A stretch of DNA of 64,000 nt from Luteimonas sp. (GTDB lineage: Bacteria > Pseudomonadota > Gammaproteobacteria > Xanthomonadales > Xanthomonadaceae): contig JANPZU010000003.1 in NCBI GenBank assembly GCA_024707405.1, positions 496,001 through 560,000 on the forward strand, in the 5' to 3' direction. Of this stretch, positions 14,968 to 48,953 are shown one piece after another (within the stretch, counting starts at the first letter, position 1; each line of letters opens with the position of its first letter). Position numbers and translations under genes: made by a program. The notes under the pieces were generated by a model that was given only the letters and a program-made list of their open reading frames with translations, searched no databases and had not been told where the DNA came from.

Positions 14968-15813
14968 ATGACACATCGCCTCGCCACACTGACCGCCGTC
15001 CTGCTGCTCGCCCTTGGCGCCGCGGCAGGCAATGTGCATGCCCAAGGCAAGCGCAGCGACCAGGCCGTGCTGCCGGTGATCGATACCAGCGGCAAGGTGC
15101 AGGGATACCTAGTACTCGAACCCGCTCCGGGCACCCCACAGGCCGGTGCGCGCTGGCGCTCGGGCAGCAACACGCTCGACGCCGCCTTCGGTGTCGGCGC
15201 CGGCAACTCACTGGCGCTGGTCTGCAATCGCGGCTTCAGCGCCATCAGCAGCCTCGCCAACAACTGCGATGTCGCCGAACTGAGCGACAACGCCGATCGC
15301 AACCGCCGCGCAACCGCCACGGCCGCATTTGGCAGGCCGGGCGGGCGCTTCGGCGTGACCCTCGGCGAGGGACAGGAAAGCCTCCCCGCCTGGCTGACGC
15401 GCGATCCGTCCCACACCACCAGCGTCGATGTCAACGACCTGACCGTCTTCGCACAGAAGAACGTCGGCGACGCGGGCTTCGTCACCATCGCGGGCACCTT
15501 GGCCAAGGCCACATTGGTACCGTTCGCGAGTGCGCCGGTCGGCCTCGCGGACAACTGGAGTGCCCGCAGTCTCGAACTGGGCGGCGGTGTCGGTAACTTC
15601 AGCGCCAACATCATCGGCCGCGTGGTCGACACGCCCGGCCAGCCCAAATGGGAAGGCCTGGGCCTGGGCCTGACCTGGCGCACGCCGTGGAGCGGACAGC
15701 TCACTGTTGGCGCGGAGAACGTCGTCACCCGCGGCAGGAATCCATTCTCGCCGAGAAATGAGACTGTCGACGAAGGGGCCGTTCCTTACGTCCGATATGA
15801 GCAGGATCTCTGA
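14968..15813 (+). CDS. Exported protein of unknown family, outer-membrane-like C-terminus
   Basis: A 281-residue protein with a clear signal peptide (residues 1-25, cleavage after VHA) using the ATG at 14968. The mature protein is rich in Gly, Asn and short alternating hydrophobic segments. The C-terminal half (GGGVGNFSANIIGRVVD, LGLGLTWRTPW, LTVGAENV) reads as amphipathic strands. The chain ends in VPYVRYEQDL, similar to the end of the neighbouring receptor, YISYEQNF. This suggests a beta-barrel or barrel-associated outer-membrane protein. I do not recognise the family. Position just before the receptor suggests a shared role. Confidence 0.75.
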   Translation: MTHRLATLTAVLLLALGAAAGNVHAQGKRSDQAVLPVIDTSGKVQGYLVLEPAPGTPQAGARWRSGSNTLDAAFGVGAGNSLALVCNRGFSAISSLANNCDVAELSDNADRNRRATATAAFGRPGGRFGVTLGEGQESLPAWLTRDPSHTTSVDVNDLTVFAQKNVGDAGFVTIAGTLAKATLVPFASAPVGLADNWSARSLELGGGVGNFSANIIGRVVDTPGQPKWEGLGLGLTWRTPWSGQLTVGAENVVTRGRNPFSPRNETVDEGAVPYVRYEQDL

Positions 15814-16017
15814 CGTCCTAGCCTGCAAGGCTCGCTTCGGCCAAGGCACCCCGCTGCGGGCCTGATCACAAAAAGCAAGCCTTTTGTTAACGACACTTTA
15901 ATTTCTCTCCCGGGCCGGATACCATCGGCCCAGCTCTGTCGGCATTGGTGTCCGTCTTGGAACGCCGCCGGTGGAGCACCCATGGGATTACAACCCAAGA
16001 CTCACTTGGAGAGAGAG
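15814..16017 (+). promoter_or_regulatory. Leader/promoter region of the TonB-dependent receptor
   Basis: A 204-base gap ahead of the receptor. It holds a TTTTGTTAAC element (15882-15891), sharing its core with the promoter of the preceding gene, then an AT-rich ACTTTAATTTC stretch. The transcript would have a leader of about 100 bases ending in a strong SD (GGAGAGAG) just before the ATG at 16018. No convincing -10 can be assigned. Confidence 0.4.
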
Positions 16018-18681
16018 ATGACCTTGAAGACCAACAAGCTCCGTGAAGCGATTACCGTCGCTCTCGCAGCAGGTGCCACGACGCTGGCAGGAACCGGCGT
16101 TGCGTTCGCGCAGGATAGCGGCTCCGCAGGAGAGACCACGAACCTCGACCGTATTCAGGTCACCGGCTCGCGCATCAAGCGCGCTGAAGTCGAAGGCCCG
16201 AACCCGATCACGGTGGTCTCGCGGGCTGACCTGCAAGCAGCCGGCGAAATTTCCGTCGCCGACTTCCTCCGCAACAATGTCTACAACTCGTTCGGCTCGA
16301 CCCGTGAGTCCTCGGGCTCGGCAACCGGCTCGCAAGCCACCGTCAGCATCCGCGGCCTGGGTGCGGCTTACACGCTCGTCCTGCTGGACGGCCGTCGCAT
16401 CACCCCGTCCGGCGCCTTGGCCGGTACCGCAGCCAACATCAACATGATGCCGACCTCGGCGATCGAGCGCATCGAAATCCTGCGTGAAGGCGCGGCCGCG
16501 ATCTACGGCTCCGACGCGATCGGCGGCGTGATCAACATCATCACCCGCAGGGATTACGAAGGCGCCAGTGTCCAGATGGGTTATGAAACCCCGAAGGTCG
16601 GCCCCAACGGCACCACCGGCAGCGCGTCGATCGGCATCAGCTCCGATCGCGGCAACGTCACCATGGTCCTGGATCACCAGGAACGCGAGATGATGTACAA
16701 CCGTGAAATCAAGGATATCGTGACCGGCAACGGCATCGCTTGGGCCACCAGCCCGTACAACTCGTCCGCCGGCTTCCTCGGCCCGGACGGCTTGGTCAGC
16801 GTGCCGAACTGCGATACCTTCGAGAACAGCATCCGTACCGGCCCCAACAGCTGTGGCTTCGACCATGGCGCGACCTCGGCCAATGAATCGTCGCTCCGCC
16901 GCAATGCCTTGCTGATCAACGGCAGCTACGACATCACCGACAATACCTCGCTGTTCTTCCGCGGCCTGACATCGGAAACCAAGAGCTTGGGCGTCTATGC
17001 TTCCGCTCCGGTCGACAACTCCGGTCGTGGCCCGGGCGTCCTGCCCACCATCTCCGCCAGCAACCCGTTCAACCCGTTCGGCGCCAATGGCACCTTGTAT
17101 TACCGCTTCACCCCGCTCGGCACCCGCGATTCGCACCGCAAGGACAGCCTGCGTGACTACACGCTGGGCCTGCGCGGCTTCGCGGACATCCTCGGCGGCG
17201 CGGATTGGGAAGTGGCCGTCGGTTACGGTCAATCCTCACAGGCCAGCGTCAACTACAACTACGGCATCGGCAGCGCCCTGCAGCAGGCGATCGATTCGGG
17301 CAATTTCAATCCTTTCGATCCCACCCACCCGAGCGTCGCAGCCAACGCCCCGGGCATCGGCCACACCGTGTTCGTGGAATCGACCCTCAAGACGAAGGGC
17401 ATCGACGGCAGCATCTCGTTCGACCTGTTCGACATCGGTGATCGCACTGTCGGCTTCGTGACCGGCTTCGAATACCGCGAAGACGCCCTGGCACAGACCT
17501 ACGACGCCCAGAGTGCCGCCCTCAACGTGTTCGGCACGGCCGGCGCCGGATCCAACGGCTCGCGCAGCTACTCGGCCGCGTACTTCGAGACCCTGATCCC
17601 GCTCCTCGACAGCCTGAACATCACCGTCGCCGGCCGCTACGACGATTACAGCGACGTGGGCTCCAAGTTCTCGCCACGCGTGTCGCTCGAGTTCCGTCCG
17701 ATCGACTCGCTGCTGCTTCGTGCCTCGGGTGGACGTGGCTTCCGCGCACCCAGCCTGTCGAACCTCTACAACGCACCGTCCCCGACGAACCTCTCCTCAC
17801 TTGCCGACGCAGCGATTCCGCACGCCGGTGGCGATGAGCTGGCTTGCGGCGCACTCAGGGCTTACCGTACCGCCTCGGGCGATGCCGCATACCAGCCCTA
17901 CCCGGTCGATCCCTGCAGAACCGACCTCCAGTACACCTGGCTGCAGATGTCGAACCCCGGCCTGAAGCCGGAAGAGTCCCAGAACTGGGGCGCCGGCGTG
18001 GTCTGGAGTCCGAGCGACGCGCTGTCGATCGCGTTGGATTACTACGACATCGAGATCGAGAACGTCATCAGCACGGTTCCGCGCGCATTGGCGTTCCGTT
18101 ATGGCGACCAGGGCCTGGCACCCTATGGCGTGACCCGTGGCAACGCGATCGTCACACCGGACGGCACCGTGCTTCCCGGCCCGGCGAACCTGATCAATCT
18201 GCCGATCGACAACGGCGCCATGCAGACCGCACGCGGCCTGGACTTCGAGTTCAGCTATCGACTGGATACGGACTCCTTGGGCACTTTCAGCACCAAGCTC
18301 GCCTGGACGCATGCCCTGGAGTTCAATTTCACCCCGATCGTGGGCGGCGAGCAGGAAAATGCCGGCAAGATGGGCTTCCCGAAGAACCGCGGGCAGTTGG
18401 GACTGGGCTGGAACAGCGGCGACTGGGCAGCCAACGTGATCACCAACTACATCTCTGGCCATGCCGGAACCACGGCCGCCTCGGTGTTCCCGTCGTGCAC
18501 CACGGTGGATGCCCAGGTGCGCCTTGCCCTGCCCTGGAACGGCAACGTGACCATCGGTGTCCGCAATGTCGGCAACAAGATGCCGCACATGACCACCGCA
18601 CTTGGCTTCCCGCATTACAGCAACTCGCTCTACAACATTTACGGCCGTACGCCGTACATCAGCTACGAACAGAACTTCTGA
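16018..18681 (+). CDS. TonB-dependent outer-membrane receptor
   Basis: An 887-residue receptor. The signal peptide (residues 1-32, cleaved at AFAQ) is followed by a TonB-box-like segment LDRIQVTGSRIKR and a plug domain (about 55-165: VSIRGLGAAYTLVLLDGRR, IERIEILREGAAAIYGSDAI, GGVINIITRR). A 22-strand barrel ends in an aromatic C-terminus (YISYEQNF) recognised by the BAM machinery. This subclass is greatly expanded in Xanthomonadaceae and usually takes up oligosaccharides, peptides or unknown nutrients; the ligand cannot be read. A terminator follows, then the oxygenase/glycosyltransferase run on the same strand. The start has SD GGAGAG. Confidence 0.93.
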   Translation: MTLKTNKLREAITVALAAGATTLAGTGVAFAQDSGSAGETTNLDRIQVTGSRIKRAEVEGPNPITVVSRADLQAAGEISVADFLRNNVYNSFGSTRESSGSATGSQATVSIRGLGAAYTLVLLDGRRITPSGALAGTAANINMMPTSAIERIEILREGAAAIYGSDAIGGVINIITRRDYEGASVQMGYETPKVGPNGTTGSASIGISSDRGNVTMVLDHQEREMMYNREIKDIVTGNGIAWATSPYNSSAGFLGPDGLVSVPNCDTFENSIRTGPNSCGFDHGATSANESSLRRNALLINGSYDITDNTSLFFRGLTSETKSLGVYASAPVDNSGRGPGVLPTISASNPFNPFGANGTLYYRFTPLGTRDSHRKDSLRDYTLGLRGFADILGGADWEVAVGYGQSSQASVNYNYGIGSALQQAIDSGNFNPFDPTHPSVAANAPGIGHTVFVESTLKTKGIDGSISFDLFDIGDRTVGFVTGFEYREDALAQTYDAQSAALNVFGTAGAGSNGSRSYSAAYFETLIPLLDSLNITVAGRYDDYSDVGSKFSPRVSLEFRPIDSLLLRASGGRGFRAPSLSNLYNAPSPTNLSSLADAAIPHAGGDELACGALRAYRTASGDAAYQPYPVDPCRTDLQYTWLQMSNPGLKPEESQNWGAGVVWSPSDALSIALDYYDIEIENVISTVPRALAFRYGDQGLAPYGVTRGNAIVTPDGTVLPGPANLINLPIDNGAMQTARGLDFEFSYRLDTDSLGTFSTKLAWTHALEFNFTPIVGGEQENAGKMGFPKNRGQLGLGWNSGDWAANVITNYISGHAGTTAASVFPSCTTVDAQVRLALPWNGNVTIGVRNVGNKMPHMTTALGFPHYSNSLYNIYGRTPYISYEQNF

Positions 18682-18711
18682 TCCCAGGATCAGGTTCATC
18701 GCAGCATTGGC

Positions 18712-18738
18712 GACCCGCTTCGGCGGGTCGTTTTTTTT
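18712..18738 (+). terminator. Rho-independent terminator of the TonB receptor gene
   Basis: A perfect 7-bp stem GACCCGC/GCGGGTC with a TTCG tetraloop is followed by G and eight T. It lies 30 bases after the receptor stop and separates its transcript from the downstream enzyme cluster. Confidence 0.92.
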
Positions 18739-18829: not shown

Positions 18830-19495
18830 ATGAGCACCATCAACGCCAGCATCAATCCGATGTATGCGGTTCCATTGATGAATTGCGTGCTTCCCGGACA
18901 GGCATTGCTCAATGCGGATCTGAAGCGGCTGTTCCTCGACCTTGAAGCAGAGGGCGACAAGCACCGCGACCACGAACTCCGCGATACCCAGGTCGGTATC
19001 TTCGAGAGCAACTTCTACCTGCACAAACGGCCAGAGCCGTGCGTCGCCATTCTCTTTGGGCACATCAAGCAGGCGATCTTCAGCCTGATCCAGGGCATCA
19101 ACGCATATGACGACGCGCAGATGTCCAACATCCACCTGGACATGCACAGCTGGTTCCACATCACCAGGGCCGGCGGCTTCCAGAGTTCCCATCGGCACCC
19201 GAACGCCAGCTGGTCTGCGATCTACTGCGTCGATCCCGGTGACAGCAACGATCCTCAAAGCGGGATCGTGCGATTTCACGATCCGAAAAGCGACAGCATG
19301 ATGTACATGGATCCCGCCAATGCCAACTTGCAGATGCCATACCGACTAGGGGCGTTCCAGTTGACGCACAAGGCAGGACAGATGGTCGTGTTTCCCTCGT
19401 ACCTTGCGCATGAAGTGTTCCCCTACACCGGCCAACGCCCGCGGATCGTCGTGGCCCTCAATGCTTGGGCGCAATGGCGCACACTGCCGGCATAG
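18830..19495 (+). CDS. Putative 2OG-Fe(II) oxygenase (TIGR02466-like)
   Basis: A 221-residue protein resembling the family of putative 2-oxoglutarate/Fe(II) dioxygenases. The jelly-roll core carries SSHRHPNASWSAIYCVDPGD (first His ligand region) and, near the C-terminus, GQMVVFPSYLAHEVFPY (distal His). The Arg in RPRIVVALNAW probably binds the 2OG carboxylate. It probably hydroxylates an amino-acid side chain in a protein, peptide or small molecule. It has no signal peptide, so acts in the cytoplasm. It opens a four-gene run; the methyltransferase follows after 29 bases. A TPR-fused homologue closes the run. Confidence 0.82.
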   Translation: MSTINASINPMYAVPLMNCVLPGQALLNADLKRLFLDLEAEGDKHRDHELRDTQVGIFESNFYLHKRPEPCVAILFGHIKQAIFSLIQGINAYDDAQMSNIHLDMHSWFHITRAGGFQSSHRHPNASWSAIYCVDPGDSNDPQSGIVRFHDPKSDSMMYMDPANANLQMPYRLGAFQLTHKAGQMVVFPSYLAHEVFPYTGQRPRIVVALNAWAQWRTLPA

Positions 19496-19524
19496 GCACC
19501 ACCCATTCGCGACGGGCCGATGGC

Positions 19525-20517
19525 ATGAACCGACCGGCATCCCCCGCCGAGCACTCGGCGCCTTGGACACGTTTGTGGAAGGCAGGCGTGCTGCACTCCT
19601 GCGCATCCGGCATCGCGGGCAACTACGACCGCGAGATCCTCGGCTTCTGGCTCGGGCAGATCGCCACCCTTTCCGATGACGACGTGCTGGTGGACGTCGG
19701 CACTGGGAATGGCGCGATCCCGTTGCTGGCACTGGACAACGCGCGCCAGCGCGGCATTTCGCTGCGGATCCATGGCGTGGATCTGGCCGATATCGATCCC
19801 GTCGCGGACATCGCTGACGGAGCCTCCAGGTTCGACGGCATCAGATTCCACCCTGGCACCTCGATGACGGCACTGCCGTTCGGTGATGGGTCGGTTTCGT
19901 TGCTGTGCTCACAATTCGCATTCGAGTACGCGCCACGGGCGGAAAGCGCCGGCGAAATCCTGCGCATCATCGGCACCAAAGGCAGCGCCGCCATGATCGT
20001 CCACAGCACGGACTCGGTGATCGCAACTGTCGCAGAAGCACAACACCACGGATGCCGATGGCTGCTGTCCGAAAGCGACCTGCTTCCAGCAGCGGGCAGG
20101 CTGCTGGACGCGATGGCCGGCGCCACCAGTCGCGAAGCACGAACCGCGCTTGCGCGCGATCCGGTCGCCGAATCCGCTCGCCATGCTTTCAACGACGCGG
20201 CATCGAAGCTGATGTCGCAGATCGAAGCCAACCCATCCGCGGAACTCCTGCAGCAAACTGCACAGCGCATCTCGAGACTGCTGGCACATCCCTTCGCGAC
20301 ACACGACGAAGCCGACGCCGCGATCTCCAGCTTACGCACCTGGATCGAGGACGAGCAGCAGCGACTGCTGCTGATGCAGGCGGCGGCACTCGACCAGCAG
20401 TCGCTGGACGATGCCGTGCGCCTGCTCGGCGCAAGCGGGCTTGCCGTCCGCACCGGGCGGCTGCTGTACGGCGGCGACACGTGCATGGGATGGACGATCG
20501 TCGTCGGCAATGGATGA
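19525..20517 (+). CDS. SAM-dependent methyltransferase (class I, cluster member)
   Basis: A 330-residue protein with a class I methyltransferase core. Motif I is VDVGTGNGAIPLLALD (residues ~52-67), and the acidic residue ending strand 2 is in HGVDLADID. Motif IV-like text is SVSLLCSQFAFEYAP. The C-terminal ~140 residues are helical with coiled-coil character, not typical of small-molecule methylases, and could recognise a protein. The ATG at 19525 is preferred because earlier in-frame ATGs lie inside the oxygenase gene. It overlaps the next gene by 8 bases. Substrate unknown. Confidence 0.8.
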   Translation: MNRPASPAEHSAPWTRLWKAGVLHSCASGIAGNYDREILGFWLGQIATLSDDDVLVDVGTGNGAIPLLALDNARQRGISLRIHGVDLADIDPVADIADGASRFDGIRFHPGTSMTALPFGDGSVSLLCSQFAFEYAPRAESAGEILRIIGTKGSAAMIVHSTDSVIATVAEAQHHGCRWLLSESDLLPAAGRLLDAMAGATSREARTALARDPVAESARHAFNDAASKLMSQIEANPSAELLQQTAQRISRLLAHPFATHDEADAAISSLRTWIEDEQQRLLLMQAAALDQQSLDDAVRLLGASGLAVRTGRLLYGGDTCMGWTIVVGNG

Positions 20518-22429
20518 CGCCAGCCGCGCGCGCGAGCTCCACGGCACGGGGCGGCTGGATGCAGCCGAGGGCCTCTACCGTACCGCGTTGCTCGCACGAC
20601 CGGACGACCTGCTGCTCCGCAGGGATTACGCGATCCTGCTCATGCAGTCCAGGCGCGAGGCCGAATCCGCCGTACTGATCGATCGGCCGGACGTGCTCGC
20701 GCGTGCCGACGCGGAAATGCTGTCGATCCTCGCAGTGTGCCTGCGCGCGACCGGCAAGTTCGATCGCGCATTCAACATCGCCACGCGCATCGTCGAGGCA
20801 GACCCCTCTGCCTCGCTCGGCTGGCTAATGCTTGGCAGCCTACAGATGCAGCGTGGCGAGGCCCATGCCGCCGAAGCGGCATTGCGCAGATGCATCGCGA
20901 TCGAGCCCGACCTCGCCGAAGCCTGGCACTATCTGGGCGAATCCCTGCACACTCAGGGACGATGGGACGAAGCGATCACGGCCTACCAGATGTCGTCGCG
21001 ACAACAGCCGTCCGAAATCTTCAACATCGCCATCTGCCACGAACTGGCCGGCCGGATCTTGCAGGCCACCGCCGGTTACGAAGCCGCGCACCGGCTCATG
21101 CCCCATCGCGCAGACGTGCTGGCGCGGCTGGCACAGACGCGCGCGGCGCAATGCCAGTCCGACGCCGAAGCCGCTGCAACGACAAGGCTGGCCGGCGTGC
21201 TGGACAGGCCGCTTGCCTGGGACGATGCCCCCGAGCCCTTCATCCTGTCGTTCCTCGATATCGACGATGTGGCGAAGGCCACCCTCCTGCGCAGGCATGC
21301 GAAACGAATCCATGCAACGGCCACGCCAATGGTCGCCACGGGAAACATCCGTTCGCGCGCCGATGCGCGGATCCGTATCGGCTACCTCTCCGCCGACTTC
21401 GATCCGCATGCCGTGGGCGAACTGGTGCGTGCACACTTCGCGGCACACGACCGGAGCCGTTTCCATGTCAGCGGCTATTCGCTGAAGCGACACGCAGGTT
21501 CGACGGCAGACGAAATCCGCCGGGGATTCGATGCCTTCATCGACTGCGAAACGCTCGCGGACCAGGCGATCGCCGATGCAATCCGCTCCGATGGCATCGA
21601 CGTGCTCATCGACATGGCCGGCTTCACGCACGGCGCGCGCCCCGTCGTGCTCGCACGACGGCCGGCACCGCTGCAACTGGGCTGGCTCGGATTCATCCAC
21701 GGACACAACGCGCCGTGGCTCGACGCGCTGCTGGTGGACGAATACGTCCTGCCATCCGATCTCGCGTGGCCATACGAAGACAAGGTCGTGCACCTCGAAG
21801 GCAGCCTGTTCCCCGGATCGCCGATCACCGTCGGCAAGCCAGATCGCGCGCGTTTCGACCTGCCCGGTGACGTGCCGCTGCTGGCGAGCTTCAACAACGC
21901 CTACAAGCTCGACGCGACGCTGATCCGGGCATGGGGCACGATCCTGCAGCGCTCACCCGAAGCCCACATGGCGGTGTATCTCCCGGACGTGGCGCGGGAA
22001 GGGTTCCTGACGCAATGGCCCGCGATCGACGCACCACGCGAACGCCTGCACATCATCGACAAGCTTCCGATCGACCAGCAGTCGGCCCGCGCGGCCAGTT
22101 GCGACCTGTTGCTGGACGCCTTCCGCTACCAGGGCGGCGCCACGTCGATGAGTGCCCTCGGCAGCGGCCTGCCGATCCTTGCGTTGGCGGGCCGTTCTCC
22201 ACTGGCGAGGTTGAGCGCCGGTCTCAATCGATTCCTCGGACTGGAAGAGCTCACCTGCGACGACATGGAGTCGTACATCTCACGCGCAGCATCGCTCGCC
22301 AACGATCCGTCGCGACTGCGCCAACTGCGCCCGCTCGTGCAGGAGCGCGTGGTACTGCATGGCTTGTTCAACCCACGCCGTGCGGCTGCCGCCATCGAAC
22401 ACGCCATCGAGGCGCTGCTGGAACGATGA
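20510..22429 (+). CDS. TPR-containing GT41 glycosyltransferase (O-GlcNAc-transferase-like)
   Basis: A 639-residue SPINDLY/OGT-type protein. Residues ~1-220 form TPR repeats (for example LAEAWHYLGESLHTQGRWDEA). The catalytic half begins IRIGYLSADFDPHAVGEL, with the conserved His of the DFxxHxV motif. It continues with PLQLGWLGFIHGHNAPWLD, LASFNNAYKLDATLI and DLLLDAFRYQGGATSMSALGSGLPIL, all matching the nucleotide-sugar-binding half of GT41. It probably O-glycosylates Ser/Thr of a protein; the sugar and target are unknown. The TPRs likely choose the substrate. Translationally coupled to the methyltransferase by an 8-base overlap. Confidence 0.88.
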   Translation: MDDASRARELHGTGRLDAAEGLYRTALLARPDDLLLRRDYAILLMQSRREAESAVLIDRPDVLARADAEMLSILAVCLRATGKFDRAFNIATRIVEADPSASLGWLMLGSLQMQRGEAHAAEAALRRCIAIEPDLAEAWHYLGESLHTQGRWDEAITAYQMSSRQQPSEIFNIAICHELAGRILQATAGYEAAHRLMPHRADVLARLAQTRAAQCQSDAEAAATTRLAGVLDRPLAWDDAPEPFILSFLDIDDVAKATLLRRHAKRIHATATPMVATGNIRSRADARIRIGYLSADFDPHAVGELVRAHFAAHDRSRFHVSGYSLKRHAGSTADEIRRGFDAFIDCETLADQAIADAIRSDGIDVLIDMAGFTHGARPVVLARRPAPLQLGWLGFIHGHNAPWLDALLVDEYVLPSDLAWPYEDKVVHLEGSLFPGSPITVGKPDRARFDLPGDVPLLASFNNAYKLDATLIRAWGTILQRSPEAHMAVYLPDVAREGFLTQWPAIDAPRERLHIIDKLPIDQQSARAASCDLLLDAFRYQGGATSMSALGSGLPILALAGRSPLARLSAGLNRFLGLEELTCDDMESYISRAASLANDPSRLRQLRPLVQERVVLHGLFNPRRAAAAIEHAIEALLER

Positions 22430-22477
22430 GCCTGCCGGCCCCATCATGACGACACACCTCCTCGCTCGCGCCGACGC

Positions 22478-23764
22478 ATGAGCCAGCACGCCACCACTGA
22501 CGAGATCAGGCGCCTGATCCAGCTCGGGCACAAGGATCGCGCACGGGTGCTGCTCGATGCCGCACTGGCTTCGGATCCCGACCATCCCGAGCATCTCTAC
22601 CTGCGCGGCATGCTGCATGCCGGTGAAGGCACGAACCGGGCCGCACTCGCCGACTTCGACGCCGCGCTCCGACTGATGCCCGACCTGCCACCGGTGCTGT
22701 TCAACCGCGGGCTGGTGCTGTTCCGCATGGAACGTACCGGCGAAGCGCTCGACGACTTCCTCGCCGTGGCGCGCAGCCAACCCGGGAACGCCGATGCCTG
22801 GACCAACATCGGCATCCTGCATTCGCGCGAAGGTCGTGCGGAAGACGCGATAGAAAGCCTGCGCAAGTCCGAATTGCTCTCACCCGGCTCGCCGTTCGTG
22901 CTCCGCGCGTTGGCCAATGCGCTGCGCGACGCCGGCCAGCACCACGAATCCATCCGGCTCCATCGCAAGGTCATGGCCGCCACGCCCGCAGACCCGGCGG
23001 CACTGACCGACTACGCGCTGTCGCTGCTGTCGGCGGGCGATCTCGCGGAGGCGCACAGCCATTACCAGCGCGCGCTGGCACTCGATCCCGGCGACCAGAC
23101 AGCACTGGCCGGCCTCTACATGACCGGCAACGAACTGGGCGAACAGGCACTCGTGTCCAGCTTGATGGACTACGACGCCCTGCTCGGGCATGGCGCGTTG
23201 CAAACACACGACGGCATCGACCTGGATGCCCTGCGCGACGCCATCCTGGCCCACGAGCACCTCGTCTGGGAGCCGGCCGGTCGATCCACCCATGCCGGCA
23301 AGCAGAGCCCGATGCTTGAACAGTCGCAAGGTTCGCGCTTCGACCGCTTCCACAGGATGATCGAGCGACAGGTCGAAGCACGCATCCGCGCCATCGCCGA
23401 CGATCCGCGGTTGCGCGGGCATCCATGGGTGGCGGCGATGCCGCGCCGGTGGCACCTGCAATCCTGGATCACCATCCTCGAACAGGGTGGGCAACAGACA
23501 CCGCACATCCATCCCGCCGGCTGGCTCAGCGGTGTCTTCTACGTGGATGCCGGCAAGCCGAGCGTGGTCGATGCCGGCAACCTCGTCTTCGGACGCACAC
23601 AGGAAGACCTGCCGCTCGCTCGCGCGGCGCGCGAGCACGAACACCACCCGTCACGCGGCCAACTGGTGATGTTTCCGTCCTACTTCTTCCACAACACCGT
23701 GCCCTACGCCGGGGACGGGCCGCGGATCAGCCTGGCGTTCGATGTCGTGCCGGAACGGGATTGA
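22478..23764 (+). CDS. TPR protein fused to a 2OG-Fe(II) oxygenase domain
   Basis: A 428-residue fusion. The first ~215 residues are six or so TPRs (VLFNRGLVLFRMERTGEALDDF and DAWTNIGILHSREGRAEDAIESL are clear copies). The last ~130 residues are a 2OG oxygenase domain related to the 18830 product: PHIHPAGWLSGVFYVD supplies the first His, LVMFPSYFFHNTVPY the distal His, and GPRISLAFDV the 2OG-binding Arg. TPR plus hydroxylase suggests a modifier that docks on a protein substrate. It ends the cluster, 48 bases after the GT41 gene and convergent with pckG. Confidence 0.84.
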   Translation: MSQHATTDEIRRLIQLGHKDRARVLLDAALASDPDHPEHLYLRGMLHAGEGTNRAALADFDAALRLMPDLPPVLFNRGLVLFRMERTGEALDDFLAVARSQPGNADAWTNIGILHSREGRAEDAIESLRKSELLSPGSPFVLRALANALRDAGQHHESIRLHRKVMAATPADPAALTDYALSLLSAGDLAEAHSHYQRALALDPGDQTALAGLYMTGNELGEQALVSSLMDYDALLGHGALQTHDGIDLDALRDAILAHEHLVWEPAGRSTHAGKQSPMLEQSQGSRFDRFHRMIERQVEARIRAIADDPRLRGHPWVAAMPRRWHLQSWITILEQGGQQTPHIHPAGWLSGVFYVDAGKPSVVDAGNLVFGRTQEDLPLARAAREHEHHPSRGQLVMFPSYFFHNTVPYAGDGPRISLAFDVVPERD

Positions 23765-23794: not shown

Positions 23795-25555
23795 TCAACC
23801 GTCTTCCGGTTCCTGCGGGTAACCCATCGCGCGCAATCCATCGGCGACGCTGTCCTTCTCCGCCTGCCATTCCTGCTCGTCCACCCGGAACAATGCCGGC
23901 GAAACGGGCGGCAACCCTGCCAAGTCGATGGCACCCTCCGCCGGCAGGATGCCGACCGAGTGTCCGCCGCCATCTCCATGCGCACGTCCCTCCACCCGCC
24001 CGACGATCCACTCCAGCACGCGGATGTTCTCGCCGAAGCCGGGCCAGAGGAACTTGCCGTCGTCGCCCTTGCGGAACCAGTTGACGTGGAAGACCTTCGG
24101 CAACTTCGCACCGGGTTTGTCGAACGACAGCCAATGCGCGAAGTAGTCGCCGAAGTGGTAGCCGCAGAAGGGCTTCATCGCCATCGGGTCGCGACGCATC
24201 ACGCCGACCTGCCCGGTCGCGGCAGCGGTGGTCTCCGATCCCATCGAGGCGCCGACCTGGACGCCATGCGCCCAATCGCGCGCCTCGAACACGAGCGGCA
24301 TCAGGGTTGCCCGGCGACCGCCGAAGACGATGGCGGAAATCGGCACGCCTTGCGGATCCTCGGCACGGGGCGACCAGCTCGGGCATTGCCTTGCGCTGAC
24401 GGTGAAGCGGGCATTGGGATGCGCCGCGGGGCCGTTGGCGGCATCGTAGGGACGCCCCTGCCAGTCCAGCGCCGGCACCCGGTCGTCCAGGCCTTCCCAC
24501 CACGGCTGGTTGTCGTCGGTCACGGCGACATTCGTGTAGATAGTGTCGTGCTGGATCGTGGCCAGGGCATTGGGATTGGTCGCGGCTGACGTGCCAGGCG
24601 CCACGCCGAAATAGCCGGCCTCGGGGTTGATCGCCCACAGGCGGCCATCCTTGCCGGGATGCATCCAGCAGATGTCGTCGCCCACCGTCCACACCTTCCA
24701 GCCCTTCTCGCGATACGCCTCGGGCGGGATCAGCATGGCGAGGTTGGTCTTGCCGCAGGCGCTGGGGAACGCCGCGGCGATGTAATGCGTCTCGCCGGCC
24801 GGCGTTTCCAGACCGAGGATCAGCATGTGCTCGGCGAGCCAACCTTCCTCGCGTGCCTGCCATGACGCCAATCGGAGTGCATGGCACTTCTTGCCCAGCA
24901 GCGCATTGCCGCCGTAGCCGGAGCCGTAGGACTTGATCGACAGCTCCTCGGGGAAGTGCATGATGAAGCGGCGGTCGGGGTCGAGTTCGCCGATCGAATG
25001 CAGCCCGCGCACGAACGGCTTGCCCTGATCGCCTTCACGCTCGATACGTGCCAAGGCTGCCTCGCCCATCCGCGTCATCAGCCGCATGTTGGCGACGACG
25101 TATGGCGAGTCGGTGATCTCCACGCCGCAACGCGCCAGTGGCGAATCGATCGGCCCCATGCAATAGGGGATGACATAGAGCGTGCGGCCGCGCATGCAAC
25201 CGTCGAACAGCGCATCCATCTTCGCGTGCGCTTCGCGCGGTGCCATCCAGTGGTTGTTGGGGCCTGCATCATCGCGTTCGCGGGTGCACACGAAGGTGAG
25301 GTGTTCCACGCGCGCGACATCATCGGGATGCGAACGGTGCAGGTAGCTACCCGGGTGCGTGTCCTGGTTGAGCGGGAGCAAGGTGCCGTCGGCCACCATC
25401 TGCGCCAGCAGGTCGGCATATTCGTCATCGCTGCCATCGCACCAGTGGATGCGATCGGGTTGCGTCAGCGCGGCGACTTCCGCGACCCAGTCGTTCAACG
25501 CAGCCAGACGGCTGCCATGCGCAGGGATCGCCTGCGGGCGCGGAACTGCATTCAT
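23795..25555 (-). CDS. pckG: Phosphoenolpyruvate carboxykinase (GTP)
   Basis: A 586-residue enzyme converting oxaloacetate and GTP to PEP, the first step of gluconeogenesis. The kinase P-loop-like FPSACGKTNLAML, the GDDICWMH metal segment and SYGSGYGGNALLGKKC are typical of the GTP-dependent class, as is the ~600-residue length. The ATG at 25555 is chosen for its SD (GGGAGG, eight bases upstream) and family N-terminus. A longer in-frame reading to 25642 would enter the promoter. Two palindromes lie upstream, so expression is likely repressor-controlled. Confidence 0.96.
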   Translation of the reverse strand: MNAVPRPQAIPAHGSRLAALNDWVAEVAALTQPDRIHWCDGSDDEYADLLAQMVADGTLLPLNQDTHPGSYLHRSHPDDVARVEHLTFVCTRERDDAGPNNHWMAPREAHAKMDALFDGCMRGRTLYVIPYCMGPIDSPLARCGVEITDSPYVVANMRLMTRMGEAALARIEREGDQGKPFVRGLHSIGELDPDRRFIMHFPEELSIKSYGSGYGGNALLGKKCHALRLASWQAREEGWLAEHMLILGLETPAGETHYIAAAFPSACGKTNLAMLIPPEAYREKGWKVWTVGDDICWMHPGKDGRLWAINPEAGYFGVAPGTSAATNPNALATIQHDTIYTNVAVTDDNQPWWEGLDDRVPALDWQGRPYDAANGPAAHPNARFTVSARQCPSWSPRAEDPQGVPISAIVFGGRRATLMPLVFEARDWAHGVQVGASMGSETTAAATGQVGVMRRDPMAMKPFCGYHFGDYFAHWLSFDKPGAKLPKVFHVNWFRKGDDGKFLWPGFGENIRVLEWIVGRVEGRAHGDGGGHSVGILPAEGAIDLAGLPPVSPALFRVDEQEWQAEKDSVADGLRAMGYPQEPEDG

Positions 25556-25664
25556 CGATGTCCTCCCAAACATTGAAACCGGCATCGCTACCGGAAAAGT
25601 TACGCAAGCAACCAGTGTATCGACGCAAACGCGAAGCGACACACGGTGATGCCATGCGAGGGAG

Positions 25665-46712: not shown

Positions 46713-48953
46713 CTACCAGTCGATCGCCAGGCTGGCGCCGAAGTTGCGACCCGGCGCTGTGTAGCGGTCGAGCGTCGCACTGGCATCGCTCAGAAGCGGC
46801 ACCGCACCGGCAGCCCAGTACTTCTTGTCGCTGAGGTTGAAGACGCCGACGTTGACCTTCGCACCCGGTGCGAACGTCCAGTGGGCGTACAGATCCAGTA
46901 CGCCATAGCCGGGCGACTCGTAATAAGACACGCCTGCAGGCGGCGAAGACATCCGGTCTCGTCGACCGACGAAGCGACCGGCCAGTTCCGCACCCCAGGT
47001 GTCGTTGGCATAGGCAATGCCGAGCGCGGCGGTCAACGGATCGACCGAATCCAGCGGCTCGTCGGCGGTGCGGTCTTCGCCGCGCGACCAGGCCGCAGCC
47101 CCACGCAGCGACCAGCCCTGCCACGCATCGGAGAGCGCACCCAGATCCACGCCTGCCTTGAGTTCGGCACCGTAAACGCGCGCTTCGGCGACGTTCTGAG
47201 ACTGGTAAACCATCAGGCCGTCGCTGTTGAAGCCGATGAAGCGGAACGATTCGATGAAGTCGTCGTAGCGGTTGTGGTAACCGGCGAGACTGGCGTGCAC
47301 GGCCTTGCCGTTGAAACGCAGGCCGAGTTCGAGCCCATCGCTGGTCTCGGGCTTGAGGTCGGGATTGGCGATGGCGGTGTAACCGAACATCACGTTGGTG
47401 AAACCGATGTTGACGTCGGCATACGGTGGCGAGCGGAAGCCGCGCGCATAGCCGCCGTACAGCGACCAGTCGCCGGCGAAATGCCACACCGCGCCGAGCT
47501 TGGGCGACACGCTGGTCTCGGTGACGCCGACCACGGCCACGCCGGGATTGTCCTCGGCGAAGATGGCATCGAGCTTCGGATCGAGCTTGTAGTAGTCCAC
47601 GCGCACGGCGGGCACCAGCCGGAACGCGCCGTCGGCGAAGGCGATCTCGTCCTGCAGGTAGAGCGCCGCGTTGGTGGTCTTGCTGATCGGGAAATCGCGC
47701 ACCGGGAACACGTCGGGAAGCATCACCGGCGTCTGTACGCCGGTCAGCGGGAAGGTACGCAGGCCATCGCGTTTCTGCTCGGTCTCGGTGCGCGACACGT
47801 CCAGGCCCCAGGCCAGGTCGTGCACCACCGCCACGCCCTCGAACGACTTGCGGAAGTTCGCCTGCAGGCCGGTGATGGACTGTTCGAATTCGAAGGTGCG
47901 TTCGCGGATGTCGCGCAGCGTCGGCGCCGGCAGCGTGCGTTCCTCGATGGTGTATTGCGTGGTCTCGCTGTCCTGGCGGTACACCTGCCAGTCGATGGCG
48001 TCGGCGAAGCCGCCGATGGCGTCGATCTCGTGCCCGAACGACAGCCTCGTGCGCTTCTGGCGGTCGCGCGCCGCGACCCGCGTGTTCGTCGCGCCGGTCA
48101 ACGCTTGGAACCCTTGCGAGGTCAGCATGTCGGTATCGGCGGCGTCCTCGTTGCCCTCCAGCGTCAAGCGGAAGCGCTGGTTCTCCGACGGCGCATAGAC
48201 CAGCTTCGACAACACGCTGCGGCCATCGCGCTCCTGCGGGTTGGGTTGCGTGCGCACGCTGCCGGTGCCGCCGGTTTCGCCCTGGTTCTCGGTTTCCTGC
48301 CCCTGGCGATGGCTCACCGCCACCATGCCTGACCAGCGCTCGCCGCCGAATGCCGTGGTGGCGCCGCCGAACAGCCCGTTCCAATCGGTTTCGAAACCGA
48401 GCTTGAACCCGAAGTAGGCGTCCTTGCCGTCCGCCAGGTAATCCGACGGATCCTTGGTGACGAAGGAGACGATGCCGCCCAGCGCGTCCGAGCCGTAGAG
48501 CGAACTGGTCGGCCCGCGCACCACTTCGACGCGCTTGAGCGTGTCGAGGTCGACGAAGTTGCGGTTGGCGTTGGAGAAGCTGCCGATGCTGAAGGCATCG
48601 GACACCACGATGCCGTCGGTCTGGATGCGCACGCGATTGCCGCCGAGGCCGCGGATGCGGATGTCGCCAATGCCAAAGCGGCCGAAGCTTTCGCTGACGG
48701 TAATGCCCGGCTCGTAGCGGAACAGATCCTTCAGGTCGCGCACCAGCAACTCGTCCATGCGCGCACGGTCGATGCTGTCGACGGTGTTGGGCACGTCGAC
48801 GAGTTGGCGCTCGGTACGGGTGGCGGTGACCACGACGCGATCGAGCTGCGCGGCTTCGGGCGCCGTCGCGGCAGTGGTGTCGGTGTTGGTTTCGGCAAGC
48901 GCAAGGCCGGGCAATGCCAGGGCCAGCGCGGCGGCAAGCAGGTTGGGACGCAT
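46713..48953 (-). CDS. TonB-dependent heme/hemoglobin receptor
   Basis: A 746-residue outer-membrane receptor. Signal peptide residues 1-20 (ALA-E), TonB box in LDRVVVTATRTERQL, plug domain (about 45-150: RIRGLGGNRVRIQTDG, VEVVRGPTSSLYGSDALGGI). The barrel has the FRAP-like GFRSPPYADVN and the NPNL-like NPDLKPETSDGLELG typical of heme/hemoglobin receptors. Placement directly after hemP and behind a Fur box supports heme uptake. Start ATG 48953 begins the signal peptide. Hemoglobin vs free heme is undecided. Confidence 0.92.
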   Translation of the reverse strand: MRPNLLAAALALALPGLALAETNTDTTAATAPEAAQLDRVVVTATRTERQLVDVPNTVDSIDRARMDELLVRDLKDLFRYEPGITVSESFGRFGIGDIRIRGLGGNRVRIQTDGIVVSDAFSIGSFSNANRNFVDLDTLKRVEVVRGPTSSLYGSDALGGIVSFVTKDPSDYLADGKDAYFGFKLGFETDWNGLFGGATTAFGGERWSGMVAVSHRQGQETENQGETGGTGSVRTQPNPQERDGRSVLSKLVYAPSENQRFRLTLEGNEDAADTDMLTSQGFQALTGATNTRVAARDRQKRTRLSFGHEIDAIGGFADAIDWQVYRQDSETTQYTIEERTLPAPTLRDIRERTFEFEQSITGLQANFRKSFEGVAVVHDLAWGLDVSRTETEQKRDGLRTFPLTGVQTPVMLPDVFPVRDFPISKTTNAALYLQDEIAFADGAFRLVPAVRVDYYKLDPKLDAIFAEDNPGVAVVGVTETSVSPKLGAVWHFAGDWSLYGGYARGFRSPPYADVNIGFTNVMFGYTAIANPDLKPETSDGLELGLRFNGKAVHASLAGYHNRYDDFIESFRFIGFNSDGLMVYQSQNVAEARVYGAELKAGVDLGALSDAWQGWSLRGAAAWSRGEDRTADEPLDSVDPLTAALGIAYANDTWGAELAGRFVGRRDRMSSPPAGVSYYESPGYGVLDLYAHWTFAPGAKVNVGVFNLSDKKYWAAGAVPLLSDASATLDRYTAPGRNFGASLAIDW

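Follow-up and report, generated by a model that had tools for sequence, protein, structure and literature searches.

RaxST and RaxX represent bacterial tyrosine sulfation of an exported protein that is encoded nearby. In the Skp1 pathway of Dictyostelium, hydroxylation is followed by glycosylation. XcOGT (XCC0866) and human OGT (hOGT) combine TPRs with a GT41 catalytic domain and carry YPGTSG and NGHTTG-type motifs. In the HMW1C/HMW1 two-partner system, a dedicated cytoplasmic GT41-family enzyme is paired with the exported surface protein on which it acts. According to PMC3983070, HMW1C of Haemophilus glycosylates the exported adhesin HMW1 in the cytoplasm. HMW1C adds the sugars to Asn of the adhesin and has an AAD domain rather than TPRs.

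The window studied here is the whole stretch of 64,000 nucleotides from a Luteimonas genome (3.22 Mb, 92.9% complete). It includes, at 18830-23764, four tightly packed same-strand genes behind a TonB-dependent receptor (TBDR) gene. Unlike the HMW1C system, this cluster lies beside a TBDR; its TPR-GT41 enzyme is accompanied by oxygenases and a methyltransferase, to which relatives add sulfotransferases. The RaxST-like feature belongs to the relatives' versions: no PF13469 match was found in the window's genome (92.9% complete). The hydroxylate-then-glycosylate pathway of Skp1 may be regarded as no more than an analogy. The initial annotation knew of no described pathway with this set. The literature covered by our search likewise yielded no description of such a system. 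Other genomes, however, carry the set as well. With a probability of about one half, we regard the four genes as one version of an exchangeable combinatorial cassette that modifies the unfolded TBDR in the cytoplasm before export. The cell may decorate its receptor chemically before exporting it. The features of the locus are as follows.

14968..15813, + strand: XOO1806-family exported protein, ends VPYVRYEQDL (NF052276, E 1e-112); conserved left border of the locus
15982..18681, + strand: TonB-dependent receptor (PF00593 E 1e-41, PF07715 E 4e-21); proposed target of the cassette
18709..18732, + strand: intrinsic-terminator-like hairpin in the TBDR/OxyA interval (10-pair stem, T run)
18830..19495, + strand: OxyA, stand-alone 2OG-Fe(II) oxygenase (PF13759/TIGR02466)
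19525..20517, + strand: probable class I SAM methyltransferase with a C-terminal extension (VDVGTGNG motif, weak Methyltransf_11)
20510..22429, + strand: TPR + GT41 O-GlcNAc-transferase-like glycosyltransferase (PF13844, TPR models)
22478..23764, + strand: TPR-2OG, a TPR-fused PF13759 2OG-Fe(II) oxygenase (PF13759 E 3e-21)
23795..25642, - strand: GTP-type phosphoenolpyruvate carboxykinase (PEPCK), named by eye; conserved right border, outside the system

The compact arrangement described in the initial annotation is read directly from the coordinates: 29 bases separate OxyA from the methyltransferase gene, the latter overlaps the GT41 gene by 8 bases, and 48 bases lie between GT41 and TPR-2OG. 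No N-terminal signal peptide is visible by eye in any of the four enzymes, as had been noted before. The TBDR most likely starts at ATG 16018, with a signal peptide ending in AFAQ (by eye). The terminator placed upstream of the enzymes is indeed a 10-pair hairpin with a T run, but the region does not have more of them than its shuffled versions do (4 found, 5.0 expected). A terminator-like hairpin between the TBDR and the enzymes counts against modification of the receptor by them.

The families proposed earlier for the two oxygenases and the glycosyltransferase are confirmed by profile matches; the match of the methyltransferase is weak. OxyA matches PF13759 (E 8e-18) and TIGR02466 above its cut-off in the profile search. 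Its HxH...H...R pattern (H121, H123, H194, R205) is kept without exception in the 36 aligned sequences, which include that of the window. An AlphaFold2 model of OxyA (pLDDT 93.4) retrieves prolyl hydroxylases after two uncharacterised structures. Among functionally annotated folds, PHD2, Pseudomonas P4H and Dictyostelium PHD match best, with a TM-score by query of ~0.5-0.6. The usual form of the metal motif in such hydroxylases is HxD; OxyA has HxH instead, and identity to them is only 12-18%. The modelled fold resembles that of prolyl hydroxylases and is probably related to it. TPR-2OG is assigned to PF13759 and scores 52.1 bits with TIGR02466, below the cut-off of 62.5; its H343, H345, H405 and R416 are invariant in all 17 aligned rows.

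The product of 19525-20517 is, judging from its sequence, a probable class I SAM methyltransferase. It carries a VDVGTGNG motif, the candidate for SAM binding, and matches Methyltransf_11 weakly (E 5e-4; 21.1 bits, just under the cut-off of 21.2), and its homologue in L078 matches Ubie_methyltran with E 1e-11. The GT41 enzyme shows the PF13844 catalytic domain (E 2e-45) together with several N-terminal TPR models, and its catalytic part matches the XcOGT structure 2vsn (E 4e-46) as well as human OGT. It shares the TPR + GT41 architecture with both, whereas FIHGHN and QGGATS stand in place of their YPGTSG and NGHTTG-type donor-site motifs. Therefore, its donor or mechanism may differ from that of OGTs, and we do not assume UDP-GlcNAc as the donor. 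H300 and K466 do not vary among the 12 aligned rows; in the alignment with XcOGT and hOGT they correspond to the catalytic His and Lys, H498 and K842 of hOGT. The best non-orthologous GT41 matches in relatives (~30-34% identical) are taken for putative XcOGT-like paralogues.

The neighbourhood is conserved, contrary to the outcome that the initial annotation had named as a refutation. Orthologues of the GT41 enzyme number 19 genes in 18 of 395 Lysobacteraceae genomes; the methyltransferase is directly upstream in 18 of the 19 loci, TPR-2OG lies downstream in 15, and a TBDR belongs to the locus in 17. Among the best 80 of 259 OxyA loci, a TBDR is directly upstream in 45 and within 5 kb in 18 more, while 15, some of them at contig ends, have none inside 5 kb. 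As a baseline for this linkage, the whole 3.22 Mb genome contains 35 plug-domain genes. OxyA occupies a different fixed context in three loci (L105, L106 and L110).

The link of the enzymes to the receptor made in the initial annotation is further supported by co-variation. The divergence of OxyA follows that of the TBDR with r 0.94 (partial r 0.71 given PEPCK, n=22) and r 0.97 (partial r 0.96 given XOO1806, n=23). OxyA tracks PEPCK closely too (r 0.90), so much of this co-variation is shared descent. For the GT41 enzyme, the methyltransferase and TPR-2OG, partial r with the TBDR given XOO1806 is 0.64, 0.59 and 0.73, respectively (n=13). The relatives' sulfotransferases did not track OxyA given PEPCK (0.16, p 0.11).

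The cluster represents one form of a modular cassette. All 40 further Luteimonas loci examined have a TBDR following XOO1806, with a sulfotransferase between them once. Their enzyme content is variable, and PEPCK is found in 22 of the 40 stretches; L035 and L036 have a ~77% identical PEPCK gene in the corresponding position. The cassettes of relatives add PF13469 sulfotransferases, several of which carry TPRs. A protein of 986 aa is an oxygenase-sulfotransferase fusion of the form TPR-PF13759-TPR-PF13469. In L239, L269 and L242, a methyltransferase or sulfotransferase adjoins the TBDR without a PF13759 oxygenase; therefore hydroxylation followed by capping is not a general order. The initial annotation mentioned neither the sulfotransferases nor the modular nature of the cassette nor the hot spot between XOO1806 and PEPCK.

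The secreted protein upstream of the TBDR, earlier assigned to no known family, belongs to the named but uncharacterised family XOO1806 (NF052276). The similarity of its C-terminus to that of the receptor holds: a stretch of ~80 XOO1806 residues can be aligned with the terminal part of the TBDR orthologues of L033 (E 5e-6) and L034 (E 2e-7). Of 101 genomes, 58 have an XOO1806 match above the family cut-off and 94 have a match of any strength, the weak ones being partly TBDR ends. Its predicted structure has a mean pLDDT of only 51.5. XOO1806 is a genus-wide companion of the locus and not the partner that tracks best.

Two candidate sites in the receptor were rejected. The C-terminal tail GRTPYxRYEQNF is not an OxyA recognition site, because OxyA-linked receptors of Rheinheimera, Pseudohongiella and Wenzhouxiangella carry other tails. 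An Arg after the TonB-box region is present in 52 of 53 OxyA-linked TBDRs vs 21 of 54 others (Fisher p 4e-12; the comparison used rows that have the motif and excluded unlinked ones at contig edges), but the association disappears on correction for kinship (median p 0.5 over 14 independent pairs) and so reflects clade membership.

TBDRs are uptake receptors, commonly encoded near genes for metabolism of their ligand. Hence the enzymes could make or process a small molecule or peptide, such as a siderophore-like product or a scavenged ligand, that the receptor imports, and the ligand would link the two. The co-variation is also expected in this case. PolD, a small-molecule hydroxylase, is found at rank 33 among the 50 structures shown for the OxyA model, and in L100 the genes after TPR-2OG look by eye like those of ABC exporters. 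On the other hand, no transporter, NRPS/PKS or catabolic gene was recognised in the TBDR-PEPCK gaps read among 12 loci, 21 of the 40 Luteimonas loci hold a TBDR without any scored enzyme, and TPR arrays, GT41 and TPR-sulfotransferases seem to suit protein substrates better. We consider uptake of such a product rather unlikely, and modification of a protein or peptide by TPR-type enzymes in the cytoplasm, as suggested at the outset, the likeliest class of activity.

The substrate might also be a protein or peptide other than the receptor, such as a RiPP precursor, XOO1806 or a translation factor, with the receptor linked for a different reason. One prolyl hydroxylase matched by the OxyA model is a Pseudomonas oxygenase solved with EF-Tu (entry title of 4iw3), an XOO1806-like protein replaces the TBDR directly upstream of OxyA in L124 and L135, and the methyltransferase retains a partial r of 0.43 with XOO1806 given the TBDR. 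In PMC10040529, sulfotransferases, a lasso-peptide protein and an aspartyl beta-hydroxylase appear under near-consecutive cluster numbers in other bacteria; it is the one paper found to contain TonB-dependent, sulfotransferase and 2OG-Fe together, and there they are separate entries of a table on halotolerance. However, when small recurring ORFs were clustered (those overlapping scored genes by >35% omitted), the 16 largest clusters look like Arg/Ser-rich shadow frames, and by eye none was recognised as a conserved precursor, which speaks against a RiPP cluster. XOO1806, previously considered a possible target, is an unlikely one: it occurs with or without the modifying enzymes and tracks OxyA with r 0.37, vs 0.97 for the TBDR. 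A housekeeping substrate leaves the patchy distribution of GT41 (18 of 395 genomes) unexplained. Such a different protein or peptide substrate is rather unlikely as well. Far less probable still is hitch-hiking, in which insertions would collect in the interval from XOO1806 to PEPCK as a hot spot and its enzymes would be functionally unrelated to the receptor. The interval is highly variable, and two genera have transposases, of ISL3 type by eye, separating TBDR and OxyA, but OxyA and the TBDR co-vary beyond PEPCK, and the two are again paired in Rheinheimera, Pseudohongiella, Wenzhouxiangella and Pleionea, at whose loci no XOO1806 or PEPCK gene was scored.

From linkage, enzyme families and co-variation we infer that the receptor is the substrate, as well as the order of steps, the residues and the benefit involved. 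The newly made, unfolded TBDR, or a segment of it, would be modified in the cytoplasm before Sec export; HMW1C offers a precedent for GT41 action of this kind on an exported protein. The TPR arrays of the GT41 enzyme and the second oxygenase would hold the chain, and both oxygenases, at least OxyA with a prolyl-hydroxylase-like fold, would hydroxylate side chains. Hydroxyls on the same protein could then be capped with a sugar (GT41), a methyl group (methyltransferase) or, in relatives, sulfate (sulfotransferases). The decorated receptor would be exported and folded, with its ligand specificity, stability or exposure to phages or bacteriocins changed.

To our knowledge, outer-membrane receptors are generally regarded as unmodified polypeptides. 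Tentatively, and with more doubt than for the locus itself, we suggest that in Gammaproteobacteria interchangeable TPR-guided cassettes of hydroxylases, sulfotransferases, O-glycosyltransferases and methyltransferases may write combinatorial modifications on TBDRs in the cytoplasm, retuning ligand use or hiding the receptor from phages and bacteriocins. Receptor and writers would move together when exchanged, and in Luteimonas and its relatives this would happen at a single site of the chromosome. If true, hydroxylation, sulfation and glycosylation would enter receptor biology via variable cytoplasmic writers, and PF13759, TPR-sulfotransferase and bacterial GT41 enzymes of unknown function would gain a suggested role.

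The TonB-dependent receptor (TBDR) gene and four same-strand enzyme genes, in the order OxyA, MT (probable class I methyltransferase), TPR-GT41 (glycosyltransferase) and TPR-2OG, fill the interval between a gene of the XOO1806 exported-protein family and the phosphoenolpyruvate carboxykinase (PEPCK) gene:

14968-15813, XOO1806-family gene, left flank of the TBDR and the four enzyme genes
18830-19495 (+), OxyA, stand-alone PF13759 2OG-Fe(II) oxygenase
23795-25642, strand opposite to the enzyme genes, PEPCK gene, right flank

According to the gene coordinates, the distances between consecutive enzyme genes are 29, -8 and 48 bases. Profile searches of the source genome (3.22 Mb, 8 contigs) returned two PF13759 matches only, OxyA and TPR-2OG, no match to the PF13469 sulfotransferase family, and 35 plug-domain matches. 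Two more TBDR plug domains are found in the window, at 48471-48800 (-) and at about 63926, the latter at the right end.

Each cassette enzyme is a member of a known family; the identity of MT is the least certain of the four assignments. H121, H123, H194 and R205 of OxyA are invariant in all 36 aligned sequences and also in a second set of 38. The usual metal motif of 2OG oxygenases is HxD. An HxH motif (OxyA residues 121-123, also found in TPR-2OG) is invariant in all aligned homologues. A three-histidine iron site is possible. In a structure search with the AlphaFold2 model of OxyA (pLDDT 93.4), two uncharacterised structures ranked first and prolyl hydroxylases next; PolD was at rank 33 among the best 50 of 310 matches (E ≤ 0.001). 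The catalytic part of GT41 can be aligned to XcOGT over its length, with H300 and K466 invariant in 12 of 12 rows and two donor-site motifs altered.

A scan of named genomes yielded 259 relatives of OxyA, and the best 80 of them were analysed (loci L093, L095, L096 and L101 of this set come from genomes G005, G012, G050 and G052, respectively). Among these best 80, a TBDR gene lies immediately 5' of OxyA, in the same orientation and at most 300 bases away, in 45 loci; in 18 it is otherwise placed within 5 kb, in two an XOO1806-like protein is encoded immediately 5' of OxyA, and in 15, several of which lie at contig ends, there is no TBDR within 5 kb. We estimate the chance expectation for the immediate 5' position at about 1 in 100 at most, given the 35 plug-domain matches of the source genome and our estimate of about 3,000 genes; other genomes may have more TBDRs. 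Anywhere in the 65 linked loci, sulfotransferases were found in 40, MT in 16, TPR-2OG in 14 and GT41 in 11. Three unlinked loci (L105, L106, L110) share a fixed gene order with a second oxygenase and L,D-transpeptidase-like and amidase-like genes, and no TBDR (named by eye; the L106 oxygenase by Pfam); in another, L127, a second oxygenase is accompanied by genes resembling those of amino-acid ABC transporters, also named by eye. XOO1806-like proteins of about 330-410 aa replace the TBDR immediately 5' of OxyA at L124:5122-6348 (same place as L063), L135:8884-9870 (same as L066), L070 and L075; in L124, L135, L070 and L075 they end in GRVPYVRYRQDL or similar, related to TBDR ends. In Rheinheimera (L140:13344-14960, L158:12280-13868), an MbnB/TglH/ChrH-type gene and the next gene follow shortly 3' of TBDR-OxyA (PF05114, shown for L140).

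In an even sample of 395 Lysobacteraceae genomes, taken from a larger group, GT41 orthologues (E ≤ 1e-100) occur in 18 genomes from 9 of 54 genera, with 19 genes in all. Four of these loci (window, G005, G050, G052) were annotated by direct reading and the other 15 with HMMs built for the analysis; G012 is not counted. MT lies immediately 5' of GT41 in 18 of the 19 loci and TPR-2OG 3' of it in 15; TBDR is present in 17 (the exceptions are L279, at a contig edge, and L290), OxyA in 12 and a sulfotransferase in 10. The Alkalisalibacterium GT41 gene (L102:15170-17109, L293:9028-10967) reads as two or more pieces in frame and appears split.

The cassette is modular and sits at one chromosomal site, where the content of the interval varies. 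For 40 other Luteimonas genomes we examined the XOO1806 locus in stretches of about 16 kb (one of 7 kb), leaving out 11 of the 51 same-genus relatives: nine in which OxyA had been seen earlier and the fragmented G007 and G033. The absence of OxyA from these 40 loci is thus due to our choice of genomes. A TBDR follows XOO1806 in all 40, in L269 with a sulfotransferase in between, and PEPCK lies within the stretch in 22. At a threshold of >60 bits, 21 loci have no cassette enzyme, seven TPR-2OG only, six a sulfotransferase only and one MT only; TPR-2OG and sulfotransferase occur together in three, MT and sulfotransferase in one, and all three in one. Sulfotransferases also lie between TBDR and OxyA (L035, and L036 with PF13469 and no Pfam TPR match), and at this same position two loci from different genera have ISL3-type transposases, identified by eye (L033:11951-13171, L034:7941-9098). 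A single 986-aa protein (L117:7030-9990) consists of TPR, PF13759, TPR and PF13469 by Pfam, and fused-type proteins of L104, L107, L108 and L111 score for both oxygenase and sulfotransferase with our HMMs; such a fusion ties both activities to one bound substrate. Several consecutive sulfotransferase genes are found in L111 and L117, an extra PF13640 2OG oxygenase in L131 (L134 and L144 are similar by eye), and other genes within the interval in L137, L142 and L163, including a sigma-factor-like gene in L137 and L163 (by eye).

Co-variation was assessed by correlating distance matrices, excluding loci that lack a compared gene or have an otherwise placed TBDR. With PEPCK as the yardstick (n=22), r was 0.94 for OxyA-TBDR and 0.90 for OxyA-PEPCK, and the OxyA-TBDR partial r given PEPCK was 0.71; with XOO1806 (n=23), the values were 0.97, 0.37 and 0.96. 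Given PEPCK, sulfotransferase correlates with TBDR at 0.61 (n=21) and with OxyA at only 0.16 (p 0.11). For GT41, MT and TPR-2OG, XOO1806 was the sole yardstick (n=13): partial values with TBDR were 0.64, 0.59 and 0.73, versus 0.19, 0.43 and 0.02 with XOO1806 given TBDR, so MT also tracks XOO1806. On the basis of these correlations and partial values, the enzymes vary with the TBDR more than with its neighbours, over a background of shared descent.

Receptor and enzymes may be connected through a ligand, a less probable explanation of this link; no receptor residue tracking OxyA was found after kinship correction. The best-supported reading is that the unfolded TBDR is modified in the cytoplasm by the cassette enzymes. 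HMW1C (PMC3983070) is a precedent for the general idea. Our searches of a library of open-access papers gave no description of an exchangeable cassette of several enzymes linked to a receptor. In cytoplasmic modification of the receptor, the oxygenases would put hydroxyls on the unfolded chain and the transferases would then cap them, in an order that we infer. In L239, L269 and L242, MT or a sulfotransferase adjoins the TBDR without a PF13759 oxygenase; each of these transferases may therefore also act on native side chains.
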